Shown here one piece after another: positions 19,796 through 40,179 of a stretch of DNA of 64,000 nt (position 1 is the stretch's first letter; each line of letters opens with the position of its first letter). Position numbers and translations under genes: made by a program. Source of the DNA: Pontiellaceae bacterium B12219 (GTDB lineage Bacteria > Verrucomicrobiota > Kiritimatiellia > Kiritimatiellales > Pontiellaceae); NCBI GenBank assembly GCA_029432795.1, contig JARNMJ010000002.1, positions 124,001 through 188,000 on the forward strand, written 5' to 3'. Under the pieces are notes generated by a model. It was not told where the DNA came from, ran no database searches, and was given only the letters and a program-made list of their open reading frames with translations.

Positions 19796-20550
19796 TGCTG
19801 CGTTTTCCGATTAAAGAAACTTTTCACCCATGGATCTTCTGCGGAATCCCGAAGTACAACCGGATCTCCTTCAGCAATAATCTTTTTCGTGCGGGCATCC
19901 AGCATAATCACCCGGTCGGCAATTTTATAAATACTCGGCAGCTCATGGGTCACAATCACAAACGTAATATTCAGCGAGCGCGACAACTGAATAATCAAAT
20001 CATCCAGTTCATCTGCCGTTACCGGATCCAGCCCGGCCGACGGTTCATCCAAAAACAGAATTTCCGGATCCAAAGCCATTGCACGGGCAATGGCGGCGCG
20101 CTTTTTCATGCCCCCGCTGATTTCGGAAGGCATCAGGTTTGCAAACTCCGCCAAACCGACCAAACTCAGTTTCATATGGGCAATCAGCTCGCGGGCGTCT
20201 TTTCCAAGGTCTGTAAATTCCTCCAACGGAAGACAGATGTTTTCCAGCAGGGTCATTGAACCGAACAACGCCCCGCTTTGATACATCACGCCAAAACGCC
20301 GAATCAAGGCATCCCGTTTTTCGCCTTCCGATGAAACCACACTCACCTCACCGATTCGGATATCGCCGGCGGCCGGCTTATACAACCCGATCATATGCTT
20401 CAGCAGCGTCGATTTTCCGCACCCCGATCCTCCGAGAATCACGAAAATTTCTCCGCGTTTCACATCGAACGTCAACTCATCCAGTACGAGCCGATCGCCG
20501 TATTTCGCCGTCATCTTCTCGACGGTTATAATGGGTTTCTTTTCGTTCAT
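19789..20550 (-). CDS. mlaF: MlaF-type ABC transporter ATPase
   Basis: The start at 20550 (MNEKKPIITVEKMTAKYG) overlaps the permease stop by one base; the longer frame seen upstream is permease antisense sequence. The product has 253 residues with Walker A GGSGCGKST, signature EISGGMKKRAAIARA and Walker B ILFLDEPSAGLDP. It powers lipid movement by the MlaE-like permease. The signature SGGMKKR is that of the Mla subfamily. The stretch of about 130 bases between this gene and mlaD holds an inverted repeat. Confidence 0.92.
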   Translation of the reverse strand: MNEKKPIITVEKMTAKYGDRLVLDELTFDVKRGEIFVILGGSGCGKSTLLKHMIGLYKPAAGDIRIGEVSVVSSEGEKRDALIRRFGVMYQSGALFGSMTLLENICLPLEEFTDLGKDARELIAHMKLSLVGLAEFANLMPSEISGGMKKRAAIARAMALDPEILFLDEPSAGLDPVTADELDDLIIQLSRSLNITFVIVTHELPSIYKIADRVIMLDARTKKIIAEGDPVVLRDSAEDPWVKSFFNRKTQQA

Positions 20551-33863: not shown

Positions 33864-34961
33864 ATGAAAAAAGCAATCATAGCACTCGAAGACGGAACTT
33901 GTTTTGAAGGCCGCGCCTTTGCCGGATCCGGCGAATTTTACGGCGAACTGGTTTTCAACACCTCCATGACCGGTTATCAGGAAATCCTGACCGACCCCTC
34001 CTATCACGGCCAAATCGTCACCATGACGTATCCACTCATTGGAAACTACGGCATTAACGACGAAGATATTGAATCGCGCGGTATTTTTGCACAGGGGCTG
34101 GTGGTCAGCGAATGCTCGCGAATTCACAGCAACTGGCGCGCAACTAAATCGCTCCCCGACTATCTTGAGGAGAACGGAAAAATCGGCATCGATGATGTCG
34201 ACACCCGTGCCATTACCCTGCACATTCGCGACAAAGGCGCCATGAAGTGCGTAATTTCCACAGAAGACCTGAATAAAGAAAGCCTCGTGGCCAAGGCCAA
34301 GGCCTCCGACGGACTCATCGGCCGCGACCTCGCATCCGAAGTTTCCATCGACTCCAGCTATGTCTGGCCCGAAGGCGGAAAAGCCGATGCGGCCTATAAG
34401 GTGGCGGTCATCGACTGCGGAATTAAACTCAATCAGCTTCGCATTCTCGAAGAGCTCGGATGCGAATGCACCGTGTATCCCAACAATACCGATGCGGCGG
34501 CAATTCTGGCAGCCACTCCGGATGGCATCTTTGTCTCTAACGGACCCGGCGACCCGGCCGGCGCGCCCGAAACCACAAAACTGGTCGGCAAGCTGATTGA
34601 ATCGAAAGTTCCAATGTTTGGAATCTGTTTCGGGCATCAAATGCTCGGTCGTGCACTTGGAGCCGATACCTTTAAATTAAAATTCGGTCATCGTGGCGGC
34701 AACCAGCCGATCCAGGACCTGCGGACCACAAAGGTGGAAATCGCATCGCATAACCACGGCTTCTGCATCGATGCCGACACCGTTAATCCGGACGTCGCCG
34801 AAATCACTCATATCAATCTGAACGACAATACGGTCGCCGGGTTGAAACATAAAAAACAGCCGCTCTTCTGCGTGCAGTATCACCCCGAAGCCGCTCCCGG
34901 CCCACACGATCCGTTCTACCTCTTTGAGGAGTTCATCGACTTAATGAAGGAAAATAAATAA
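33864..34961 (+). CDS. carA: Carbamoyl-phosphate synthase small subunit
   Basis: It supplies ammonia from glutamine to CarB for pyrimidine and arginine synthesis. A protein of 365 residues, the normal size. The CPSase small-chain domain starts with EDGTCFEGRAFAGSGEFYGELVF and MTGYQEILTDPSY; the class I amidotransferase has VSNGPGDPAGAP, nucleophile Cys in FGICFGHQMLG, and His-Glu in QYHPEAAPGPHD. Its stop overlaps the guaA start (TAATG). A perfect palindrome copy sits just before the active Cys (34609-34623). Confidence 0.95.
   Translation: MKKAIIALEDGTCFEGRAFAGSGEFYGELVFNTSMTGYQEILTDPSYHGQIVTMTYPLIGNYGINDEDIESRGIFAQGLVVSECSRIHSNWRATKSLPDYLEENGKIGIDDVDTRAITLHIRDKGAMKCVISTEDLNKESLVAKAKASDGLIGRDLASEVSIDSSYVWPEGGKADAAYKVAVIDCGIKLNQLRILEELGCECTVYPNNTDAAAILAATPDGIFVSNGPGDPAGAPETTKLVGKLIESKVPMFGICFGHQMLGRALGADTFKLKFGHRGGNQPIQDLRTTKVEIASHNHGFCIDADTVNPDVAEITHINLNDNTVAGLKHKKQPLFCVQYHPEAAPGPHDPFYLFEEFIDLMKENK
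34609..34623. repeat. Dispersed palindrome, perfect copy (carA)
   Basis: TTCCAA-TGT-TTGGAA encodes Val-Pro-Met-Phe-Gly, six codons before the end of the active-site Cys motif. Confidence 0.85.
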
Positions 34962-36508
34962 TGAATCATCCCGAATGGATTGCCATCCTCGACTACGGCT
35001 CCCAGGTCACACAGCTGATTGCCCGCCGTCTCCGCGAACAGAAAGTCTATTGCGAAATCATCCGCTTTGATACGCCCGCCGAAGAGCTGAAAGCGCGCTC
35101 GCCGAAAGGCATTATTCTTTCCGGCGGCCCGTGCAGCGTTCCCGATGAAGATTCTCCGAAATGTGATCCGGCACTGTTTGATCTCGGACTTCCAATCCTT
35201 GGAATCTGCTACGGCATGCAGCTGACCTCACAGGTACTCGGCGGCTCGGTGCATCGCGGACTCAAAGCGGAATACGGCAAAGCCATGATGTCCATCACCA
35301 AACCCTCTCCGCTGTTTAAAGGGCTCGAGCCCGACATTCAGGTATGGATGAGTCATGGAGACAAGGTTGAAACCATGCCGGAAGGTTTTGAAGTGGTTGC
35401 CGAATCCGACAACTGCCCGCTCGCCGCCATCCAGAATCTCGACCGAAATATCTTTGGCGTTCAGTTTCACCCCGAAGTGGTGCACACCCCGCAGGGTAAA
35501 GAAATGCTTTGGAACTTTGCCTTCACCGTCTGCAAATGTTCCGGCGACTGGGAAATGTCCAAATTCATCGAAAACACCGTCAAACAGATTCAGGATCAGG
35601 TCGGTACCGACCATGTGCTGCTCGGTCTTTCCGGCGGCGTGGACTCCTCGGTGGTTGCCGCCCTGCTCCACAAAGCCATCGGTCCTCAACTGCATTGTGT
35701 TTACGTCGACAACGGACTGATGCGCCACAAAGAAACCGAAGAGATTGAAGATCTGTTCGGCCGCGCCTTCGGAATCGATCTGATTGTTGCCCAATCCGGC
35801 GACCTGTTCCTCGAAAAACTCAAAGGCGTTTCCGACCCCGAAGAAAAACGGAAAATTATCGGCAGCACCTTCATCGACGTTTTTGCTGAAAAAGCACGCG
35901 GACTCAGCGATAAGGTTAAATTCCTCGGACAAGGCACTCTCTACCCCGACGTCATTGAATCCGTCTCTCCCATCGGCGGCCCGTCGGCCACCATCAAGAG
36001 CCATCACAATGTCGGCGGTCTGCCGGAAGATCTTCAGTTTGATCTCGTTGAGCCCCTGCGCGAACTCTTTAAAGATGAGGTCCGCGAGGTCGGCCGCGAA
36101 CTCGGGCTCCCGAGCTACGTTGTCGACCGCCAGCCCTTCCCCGGGCCGGGCCTTGCCGTACGCATCATCGGCGACATCACCCCCGAGCGCATCGAAGTGC
36201 TGCAGCAGGCTGATTTGCGGGTCCGCGAAGAAATTCTGAAAATGCCGAACCATCTCGATGTCTGGCAATACTTCGCCGTGCTGCTGCCGATTCAGACCGT
36301 GGGTGTTATGGGCGACGACCGAACCTACGAAAGCGTCATTGCAGTACGTGCAGTGGAAAGCCGCGACGGCATGACAGCCGACTGGTACAAACTGCCCTAC
36401 GAAGTCATGGATTCCATTTCAAACCGGATCATTAACGAAGTCCCCGGCGTAAACCGTGTCTGCTACGACATCAGTTCCAAGCCGCCATCCACGATTGAAT
36501 GGGAGTAG
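34961..36508 (+). CDS. guaA: GMP synthase (glutamine-hydrolysing)
   Basis: It converts XMP to GMP. A protein of 515 residues with an amidotransferase domain (LSGGPCSVPDED, Cys in LGICYGMQLTSQ, FHPEVVHTP), an ATP pyrophosphatase domain with the PP-loop LSGGVDSSVVAALL (about 224-237), and a C-terminal dimerisation domain ending CYDISSKPPSTIEWE. The full chain is present. It lies between carA and carB, an unusual place that groups three glutamine- or ATP-using nucleotide steps. A perfect palindrome lies at 35190-35204. Confidence 0.95.
   Translation: MNHPEWIAILDYGSQVTQLIARRLREQKVYCEIIRFDTPAEELKARSPKGIILSGGPCSVPDEDSPKCDPALFDLGLPILGICYGMQLTSQVLGGSVHRGLKAEYGKAMMSITKPSPLFKGLEPDIQVWMSHGDKVETMPEGFEVVAESDNCPLAAIQNLDRNIFGVQFHPEVVHTPQGKEMLWNFAFTVCKCSGDWEMSKFIENTVKQIQDQVGTDHVLLGLSGGVDSSVVAALLHKAIGPQLHCVYVDNGLMRHKETEEIEDLFGRAFGIDLIVAQSGDLFLEKLKGVSDPEEKRKIIGSTFIDVFAEKARGLSDKVKFLGQGTLYPDVIESVSPIGGPSATIKSHHNVGGLPEDLQFDLVEPLRELFKDEVREVGRELGLPSYVVDRQPFPGPGLAVRIIGDITPERIEVLQQADLRVREEILKMPNHLDVWQYFAVLLPIQTVGVMGDDRTYESVIAVRAVESRDGMTADWYKLPYEVMDSISNRIINEVPGVNRVCYDISSKPPSTIEWE
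35190..35204. repeat. Dispersed palindrome, perfect copy (guaA)
   Basis: TTCCAA-TCC-TTGGAA encodes Leu-Pro-Ile-Leu-Gly just before the active-site Cys of guaA. Confidence 0.85.
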
Positions 36509-36517
36509 GACGAAAAT

Positions 36518-36961
36518 CTGAAACAGGAAACTTGAAACCTGAAAGTAGGGAATCTGAAAAGTGAGCAGTGAATTTGACAGATGCGATTTGAGAGAGCGAA
36601 CCACTGCGTTCGCCATCCAGATCGTTCATCTTTACGGATCACTGCCAATGAAAGATCGCTACGATATTCAGGTTGCAGGAAAACAGATAATGCGGCCCGG
36701 CACTTCCGTTGCCGCAAATTATCGGGAAGCATCCCGAGCCAGAAGCAAAGCGGATTTTATTTCAAAAATTGATATATGCACACAGGAAACAGATGAAACA
36801 CTCCTGTGGCTCGAGGTATTAAACAAAGGTTGCAAACTAAATTTAGAAACAATCGAACCGCTGAAGCAGGAAGCCGACGAACTTATTTCGATTTTCGTCA
36901 CGATGTCTAAAAACAGCAAAAGCTGATTTCAGGTTTCAGGTTTCAGGTTTCAAGTTTCAGG
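36518..36961. mobile_element. Four-helix-bundle cassette bounded by inverted repeats
   Basis: GAAACTTGAAACCTGAAA at 36527-36544 is the exact reverse complement of bases 36941-36958. The right end is a tandem array of TTTCAGG/TTTCAAG heptamers (36927-36961) that starts right after the stop of the enclosed gene. The left end has further GGAAAC/CTGAAAC units from 36518. The layout resembles the intervening-sequence elements of 23S rRNA genes, which carry the same protein family and fold as a hairpin. The right end contributes the AGGAG of carB. Confidence 0.65.
36561..36926 (+). CDS. Four-helix-bundle protein (S23/IVS-encoded type)
   Basis: A protein of 121 residues from a GTG start. It is wholly helical with family words [60 protein letters not shown] and [17 protein letters not shown], typical of the proteins encoded in intervening sequences of 23S rRNA and of related cassettes. 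They form pentameric bundles; Avd of diversity-generating retroelements is a relative. No reverse transcriptase or variable repeat is near. The gene lies in the inverted-repeat cassette between guaA and carB. Confidence 0.85.
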
Positions 36962-36969
36962 AGCGAAAT

Positions 36970-40179
<3,210 letters not shown>

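Follow-up and report, generated by a model that had tools for sequence, protein, structure and literature searches.

The window, a stretch of 64,000 nucleotides from Pontiellaceae bacterium B12219, carries a one-gene cassette between guaA and carB (Table 1). The preliminary description had reported a small gene bounded by an exact 18-base inverted repeat and by a heptamer array starting at the stop codon. All of these parts are present, and the first base of the right array lies directly after the TGA at 36924-36926. The coordinates also confirm that the cassette sits inside an operon without breaking a gene. Its right arm was proposed to give carB its ribosome binding site, in agreement with the sequence: the last heptamer of the array carries the AGGAG that precedes carB. 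At the same site in two genus-mates (G026 and G027), the orthologues of the small gene have ATGAGCAGTGAATTC at the position of the start codon, which is GTG here. The empty guaA-carB site of a further genome, G016, has TTTTCAGGAG where the cassette has its AGGAG. The arm score of the cassette, 19.5, exceeds the 99th percentile of 19 found in 1880 mismatched-pair controls.

Table 1. The cassette between guaA and carB and its neighbouring genes (positions are those of the window).
Feature	Position	Strand	Basis
guaA, upstream neighbour	34961..36508	+	ORF listing, identity from its sequence
Left arm, CTGAAAC-type heptamer array (CTGAAAC AGGAAAC TTGAAAC CTGAAA)	36518..36544	+	sequence
Exact 18-nt inverted repeat, left copy	36527..36544	+	sequence
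Gene for S23 / 23S_rRNA_IVP four-helix-bundle protein, GTG start, 121 aa	36561..36926	+	PF05635, TIGR02436, structure model
Right arm, array of five TTTCA(G/A)G heptamers inverted relative to left arm	36927..36961	+	sequence
Exact 18-nt inverted repeat, right copy	36941..36958	+	sequence
AGGAG, outer end of right arm, likely carB ribosome binding site	36959..36963	+	sequence
carB, downstream neighbour, ATG at 36970	36970..40179	+	ORF; homologues at same place in relatives

The encoded protein is a clear member of the S23 family, scoring above the curated cut-offs of PF05635 (5.4e-15, 56 bits; cut-off 33.8) and TIGR02436 (6.6e-21, 74.6 bits; cut-off 24). The former was its sole match in the Pfam search, which recognised no catalytic or transposase domain. 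An AlphaFold2 model (pLDDT 93) is all-helical and forms a four-helix bundle. Its closest solved structures are the S23 proteins 2RLD (2RLD_B, Z 17.8) and 2GSC (2GSC_D, Z 15.3). Next in the structure comparison is Avd of the diversity-generating retroelements (8UBE_D, Z 13.0; 4DWL_B, Z 12.5), a likeness of fold at Z scores close to the value of about 12 reached by unrelated helical bundles, which make up most of the matches ranked below it. A reverse transcriptase partner of the kind found in such retroelements was sought with PF00078, which had no match in this genome. S23/IVP genes are present in 100 of 144 genomes sampled across the phylum; a single query of a phage collection found none. 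The passages of PMC4990558 that deal with the S23 protein assign it no known function.

The preliminary description also proposed to look for the heptamer array next to further genes for four-helix-bundle proteins, a check that held for the arrangement and failed for the sequence. This genome has eight S23 genes: the same heptamer occurs at none of the other seven (0/7), and five of those seven lie between inverted arms of their own, with a different sequence for each pair. Inverted arms are also common around S23 genes elsewhere. Within the genus, 70 of 94 loci have an arm score of at least 13, compared with 60 of 1880 mismatched pairs. Across the phylum, scores of at least 12 were obtained for 23/27 loci and 40/702 mismatched pairs. 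In a named cross-phylum set (Bacteroidota, Nitrospirota, Planctomycetota, Desulfobacterota, Clostridia, Elusimicrobia and others), 61 of 77 loci score at least 13 against 139 of 915 controls, the control rate being high because the arms of this set have a motif in common. Eight of ten S23 loci on cyanobacterial plasmids score at least 12, two of the ten being near-identical. With a uniform cut-off of 12, 163 of 201 S23 loci pass, compared with 6 of 269 displaced blocks from the same loci, and 38 of the 201 fall below it. The median length from arm to arm is 472 bp.

These counts refer to the following samples. The genus sample comprises 28 genomes and 97 S23 loci among the matches listed, with partial, weak or otherwise unpicked places excluded; eight of the 97 are this genome's own, 94 passed the stricter flank filter and 96 the looser one. 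The phylum-wide set was entered with 28 new loci, 27 of which were used, and the cross-phylum set with 78 of 80 loci, 77 of which were used. The MAG ‘Kiritimatiellales bacterium SZUA-494’ and the congener G009 have one identical locus in common.

The arms have a regular internal structure. Genus arms (n = 75) match themselves at a lag of 7 with a frequency of 0.62-0.67, compared with 0.32 expected, and also at lags 14 and 21 but at no other lag; the ORFs show no such signal. When 75 longer arms were aligned gap-free, the repeat unit was 7 in 52 and 8 in 23. The left arm in the genus is C-poor (0.13) and G-rich (0.30), and the direction of the motif is therefore fixed relative to the gene; part of this bias may be an effect of lying in the ribosome binding region. 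Compared with direct repeats within one side, the inverted arm score is higher in 95 cases, lower in 64 and equal in four (n = 163). A mirror test of the units across the two arms was tried as a discriminator between a stem and a set of binding sites, giving 0.851 in the true register and 0.778 at the best unit shift. It was rejected because the alignment itself picks the register and because the scores of inverted arms do not clearly exceed those of one-sided direct repeats.

A transcript of the cassette is predicted to form the long hairpin, with the gene in its loop, that had been anticipated for this locus (-147.9 kcal/mol, z -6.1). The strength of this fold favours an IVS-like RNA cassette, in which the arms would be kept for the stem of the transcript and RNase III cutting would free the S23 part or alter expression of carB. 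In line with such a role, cassettes in tandem contexts, between co-directional genes, are oriented 119 sense to 6 antisense, a stronger bias than that of the window's own genes (28 sense to 6 antisense; Fisher p 0.02), and 23S IVSs with S23 are described in passages of PMC4990558 as RNase III substrates. The mismatches between the arms speak against the hairpin being what is kept: at 170 loci, transitions that leave a G-U pair in the transcript show no excess over those that disrupt it (230 vs 248; share 0.48, 95% CI 0.44-0.53). With no G-U preference, the arms thus behave as DNA-level inverted repeats, and the lack of an RNA-pairing mark favours recognition at the DNA level, most simply by S23 itself. 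Moreover, some cassettes lie antisense to their operon, for example at nrdB/nrdA in Nostoc edaphicum, and in some relatives the cassette is absent altogether. The sense bias is also explained by ordinary selection for read-through expression, 119/125 being expected if cassettes rely on read-through transcription. A search of Rfam gave a sub-threshold snoRNA match only. Maintenance of the arms for an RNA stem is, on this balance, unlikely.

The sequence of the arms follows the S23 protein. When 163 S23 proteins are placed on a tree, those next to each other have arms of similar sequence. Among pairs from different phyla, the Spearman coefficient between the distance of the proteins and the similarity of the arms is -0.46, a value reached in 0 of 300 shuffles of the arms within phyla (mean -0.19, minimum -0.30). 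Two motifs illustrate the pattern. The S23 clade of L070, which spans many phyla, has AGGCA/GGCAC in 51 of 73 arms. The window's own S23 clade, sampled outside the genus, has TGAA in 21 of 26 arms and AGGCA/GGCAC in none (0/26). Within the phylum alone, the same separation is found between the window's clade and another one, both for TGAA (21/26 vs 3/19) and for AGGCA/GGCAC (0/26 vs 11/19). These two motifs were chosen after inspection of the arms; the shuffle test is independent of that choice. Since the arm motif tracks the S23 protein across phyla, the arms are a property of the element rather than of the host.

Two pairs of close copies show which stretch travels as a unit. The cassettes L199 and L212 are 94% identical in unrelated flanks, and the match runs from arm to arm only. 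Likewise, two copies in one Elusimicrobia MAG (L230 and L233) have only the arms and the ORF in common. The cas10-cmr3 junction is occupied in PCC 7003 and has no cassette in PCC 7002 (96% identity). At a traM junction, the cassette is present in Nostoc C052 and N. edaphicum, two Nostoc C057 plasmids are empty (95-96% identity) and ATCC 53789 has the arms without the gene. No target-site duplication is visible in two occupied/empty comparisons at approximately 96% identity, where some intergenic bases are replaced. A search of the plasmid collection for the empty sites of L298, L301 and L302 found no useful relatives. As a separate observation, three S23 cassettes on cyanobacterial plasmids (L299, L302 and L304) lie inside CRISPR operons, at cas6-cas4 (with type I-D genes adjoining in L299) and at cas10-cmr3 of type III-B.

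The guaA-carB gap itself has a varied history in the genus. Among 24 loci examined, 21 could be resolved: five contain S23, five a GxxExxY gene (one decayed), two arms only and two an MNT/HEPN-like pair, while seven are bare gaps of 6-16 nt with no cassette. As the gap is bare in 7/21, carB does not depend on the cassette. The apparent MNT/HEPN gene pairs, in L042 (G019) and L057 (G009), were labelled by eye. S23 of the window's clade also occupies guaA-carB in four genomes from other families. Between this genome and its genus-mate G013, the guaA C-terminus is 97% identical and S23 60%; between this genome and G039, the values are 58% and 64%. Such comparisons suggest that S23 arrived at this site repeatedly. 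Judging from one empty site (G016, with TTTTCAGGAG), the clade motif may mark the target as well. Many S23 loci of the genus are orthologous sites that were inherited vertically, so the elements move rarely.

The GxxExxY genes (PF13366, PD-(D/E)XK-like) found at the guaA-carB junction in G001, G015, G023 and G025 belong to a second family with this design. At L266-L295, 22 of 30 loci have inverted arms scoring at least 12, compared with 45 of 870 controls, and these arms have their own CACGAA/ACCAC-type motif at a spacing of about 8-10. The design is therefore not confined to S23.

The coevolution of motif and S23 protein would also be expected of a domesticated regulator, a nucleic-acid-binding protein acting through its cognate arms and the solo arrays on expression or DNA packing, its copies having spread by array recombination and gene transfer. 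Solo arrays adjoin many genes, some orthologous S23 sites are conserved throughout the genus, and S23 is related in fold to Avd, an RNP subunit. Against this, the patchy occupancy of sites, the unrelated replacement cassettes and the arms-only remnants look like turnover of dispensable elements, and nothing here ties S23 to regulation. We regard domestication as quite unlikely.

Arrays of the window's heptamer also occur in this genome apart from any S23 gene. With at most one mismatch, TTTCAGGTTTCAGG is found at 74 places, compared with two for the reversed pattern; its exact form is found at eight, one of which is the cassette. TTTCAGG arrays reach two contig ends of this draft genome (G000:C110, end 73778; C14, end 4889), and the number and length of arrays given here are therefore underestimates. 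Across the 28 genus genomes, the abundance of two adjacent TTTCAGG units outside the cassette follows carriage of a TGAAACC-type S23: the four carriers have 39, 3, 2 and 15, and the other 24 genomes at most 4 each (p 4e-4). The corresponding excess of solo ATTGCCG arrays in carriers of the cognate S23 is not significant (p 0.17, 28 genomes), and solo GGTCGAA arrays occur too rarely for a comparison of carriers.

Two gene-less hairpins were observed individually. L023 (G000:C88, near 20302-20427) is a CCTGAAA/TTTCAGG hairpin that overlaps the beginning of the gene that follows, and part of that gene's signal peptide appears to be encoded by the repeat. L350 (G027:C2:1185300-1186300) has clearly more than 20 heptamers in one arm and roughly three in the other, and is a strong expansion of an array without S23.

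That the arrays are borne by the host, the heptamers being each genome's ordinary simple repeats at which S23 genes insert or persist, is very unlikely: S23-less arrays of the same heptamer do exist in this genome and passages of PMC4692102 and PMC4679880 describe abundant heptamer repeats in other bacteria, but the motif goes with the S23 clade whatever the phylum, a single genome can have S23 copies with different motifs, the arms travel together with the gene (L199/L212, L230/L233) and the empty sites have no array.

The closest known relatives of the cassette are the intervening sequences (IVSs) of 23S rRNA, a kinship that the preliminary description had pointed out and that the comparison upholds. 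The IVSs of Leptospira and Coxiella have the same protein family, an ORF with complementary borders, a length of about 430 nt and a sporadic, horizontally spread distribution. The Coxiella IVS also has two to three tandem GACAGAT heptamers just before its S23 ORF, with a copy number that varies between strains; the passages of PMC4990558 on these repeats draw no link to other S23 genes. Insertions in the rRNA of CPR bacteria can likewise encode an S23-family protein, according to a passage of PMC11270868. In contrast to the IVSs, the cassette described here is located in a protein operon (guaA/carB) rather than inside an rRNA gene, and its arms are long, clade-specific heptamer or octamer arrays on both sides. 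A search with seven short 23S oligos matched none of the 312 collected loci.

A second parallel is provided by REP/RAYT systems (REPINs, BIMEs), which resemble the cassette in having one gene between inverted short elements, with gene and element coevolving (passages of PMC2817692). The same source reports a correlation between copies that lack the gene and presence of the cognate gene; for S23 this is the case for TTTCAGG (p 4e-4) and not significantly so for ATTGCCG (p 0.17). The two differ in their proteins, as RAYT is an IS200/IS605-related tyrosine transposase whereas S23 is all-helical and has no recognised catalytic motif. They also differ in their ends, which in the S23 element are tandem heptamers and not single palindromes.

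The ‘STRR’ repeats of cyanobacteria are heptamers. Repeats of Xanthomonas (GGGAATC), Nostoc and Beggiatoaceae (TAACTGA) are described, in the relevant passages, as 7-bp tandem arrays between genes, as are the solo arrays here. In two Xanthomonas genomes, GGGAATC forms convergent inverted pairs, 70 in one and 75 in the other (passages of PMC4692102), and the TAACTGA arrays of Beggiatoaceae are mostly intergenic (passages of PMC4679880). S23 has a term count of 0 in the main texts of these two papers. The S23 protein Xcc0516 (PDB 2GSC) is from the same Xanthomonas species as the GGGAATC repeats, and a link between them is a possibility. The listed titles and abstract openings of the open-access literature yielded no S23 or four-helix-bundle genes tied to heptamer arrays.

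Its occurrence in many phyla, with a motif particular to each branch, suggests that this arrangement is a widespread mobile element with a single gene, so far largely unrecognised. From the sequence comparisons, we judge the odds to be somewhat in favour of the cassette being a mobile element of approximately 450-500 bp with a single gene, whose cognate ends are the inverted arrays of 7-bp (in some clades 8-bp) units. The arm motif would be part of such an element and characteristic of the S23 clade concerned. S23, which its homologues suggest to be a pentamer of Avd-related four-helix bundles, would recognise its own arm motif at the DNA level or possibly at the RNA level. Through this recognition the unit, together with solo arrays of its motif, would be able to spread into the intergenic gaps of operons, where the inserted S23 gene would be read from host transcripts. 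We infer that S23 binds the arms and that it is needed for movement. By analogy, the element may work as REP/RAYT units do, though with no known transposase, and the 23S rRNA IVSs are probably members of the same class lodged in rRNA.

A broader proposal is more doubtful and is offered tentatively. S23 might be the recognition factor, and perhaps the moving factor, of very widespread one-gene mobile elements with clade-specific inverted heptamer or octamer arrays. Their autonomous and gene-less forms would include the IVSs of 23S rRNA as well as many heptamer repeats that are so far unexplained, in cyanobacteria, Xanthomonas and further bacteria, and their movement would use none of the known transposase chemistries. 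If S23 does read the arrays, the function of the rRNA IVS protein and the origin of many bacterial heptamer repeats would become one question. The cognate motif of each S23 clade provides a direct handle for comparing matched with mismatched arrays, and the combined question would be testable in strains that can be cultured, Picosynechococcus PCC 7002 and 7003 among them.
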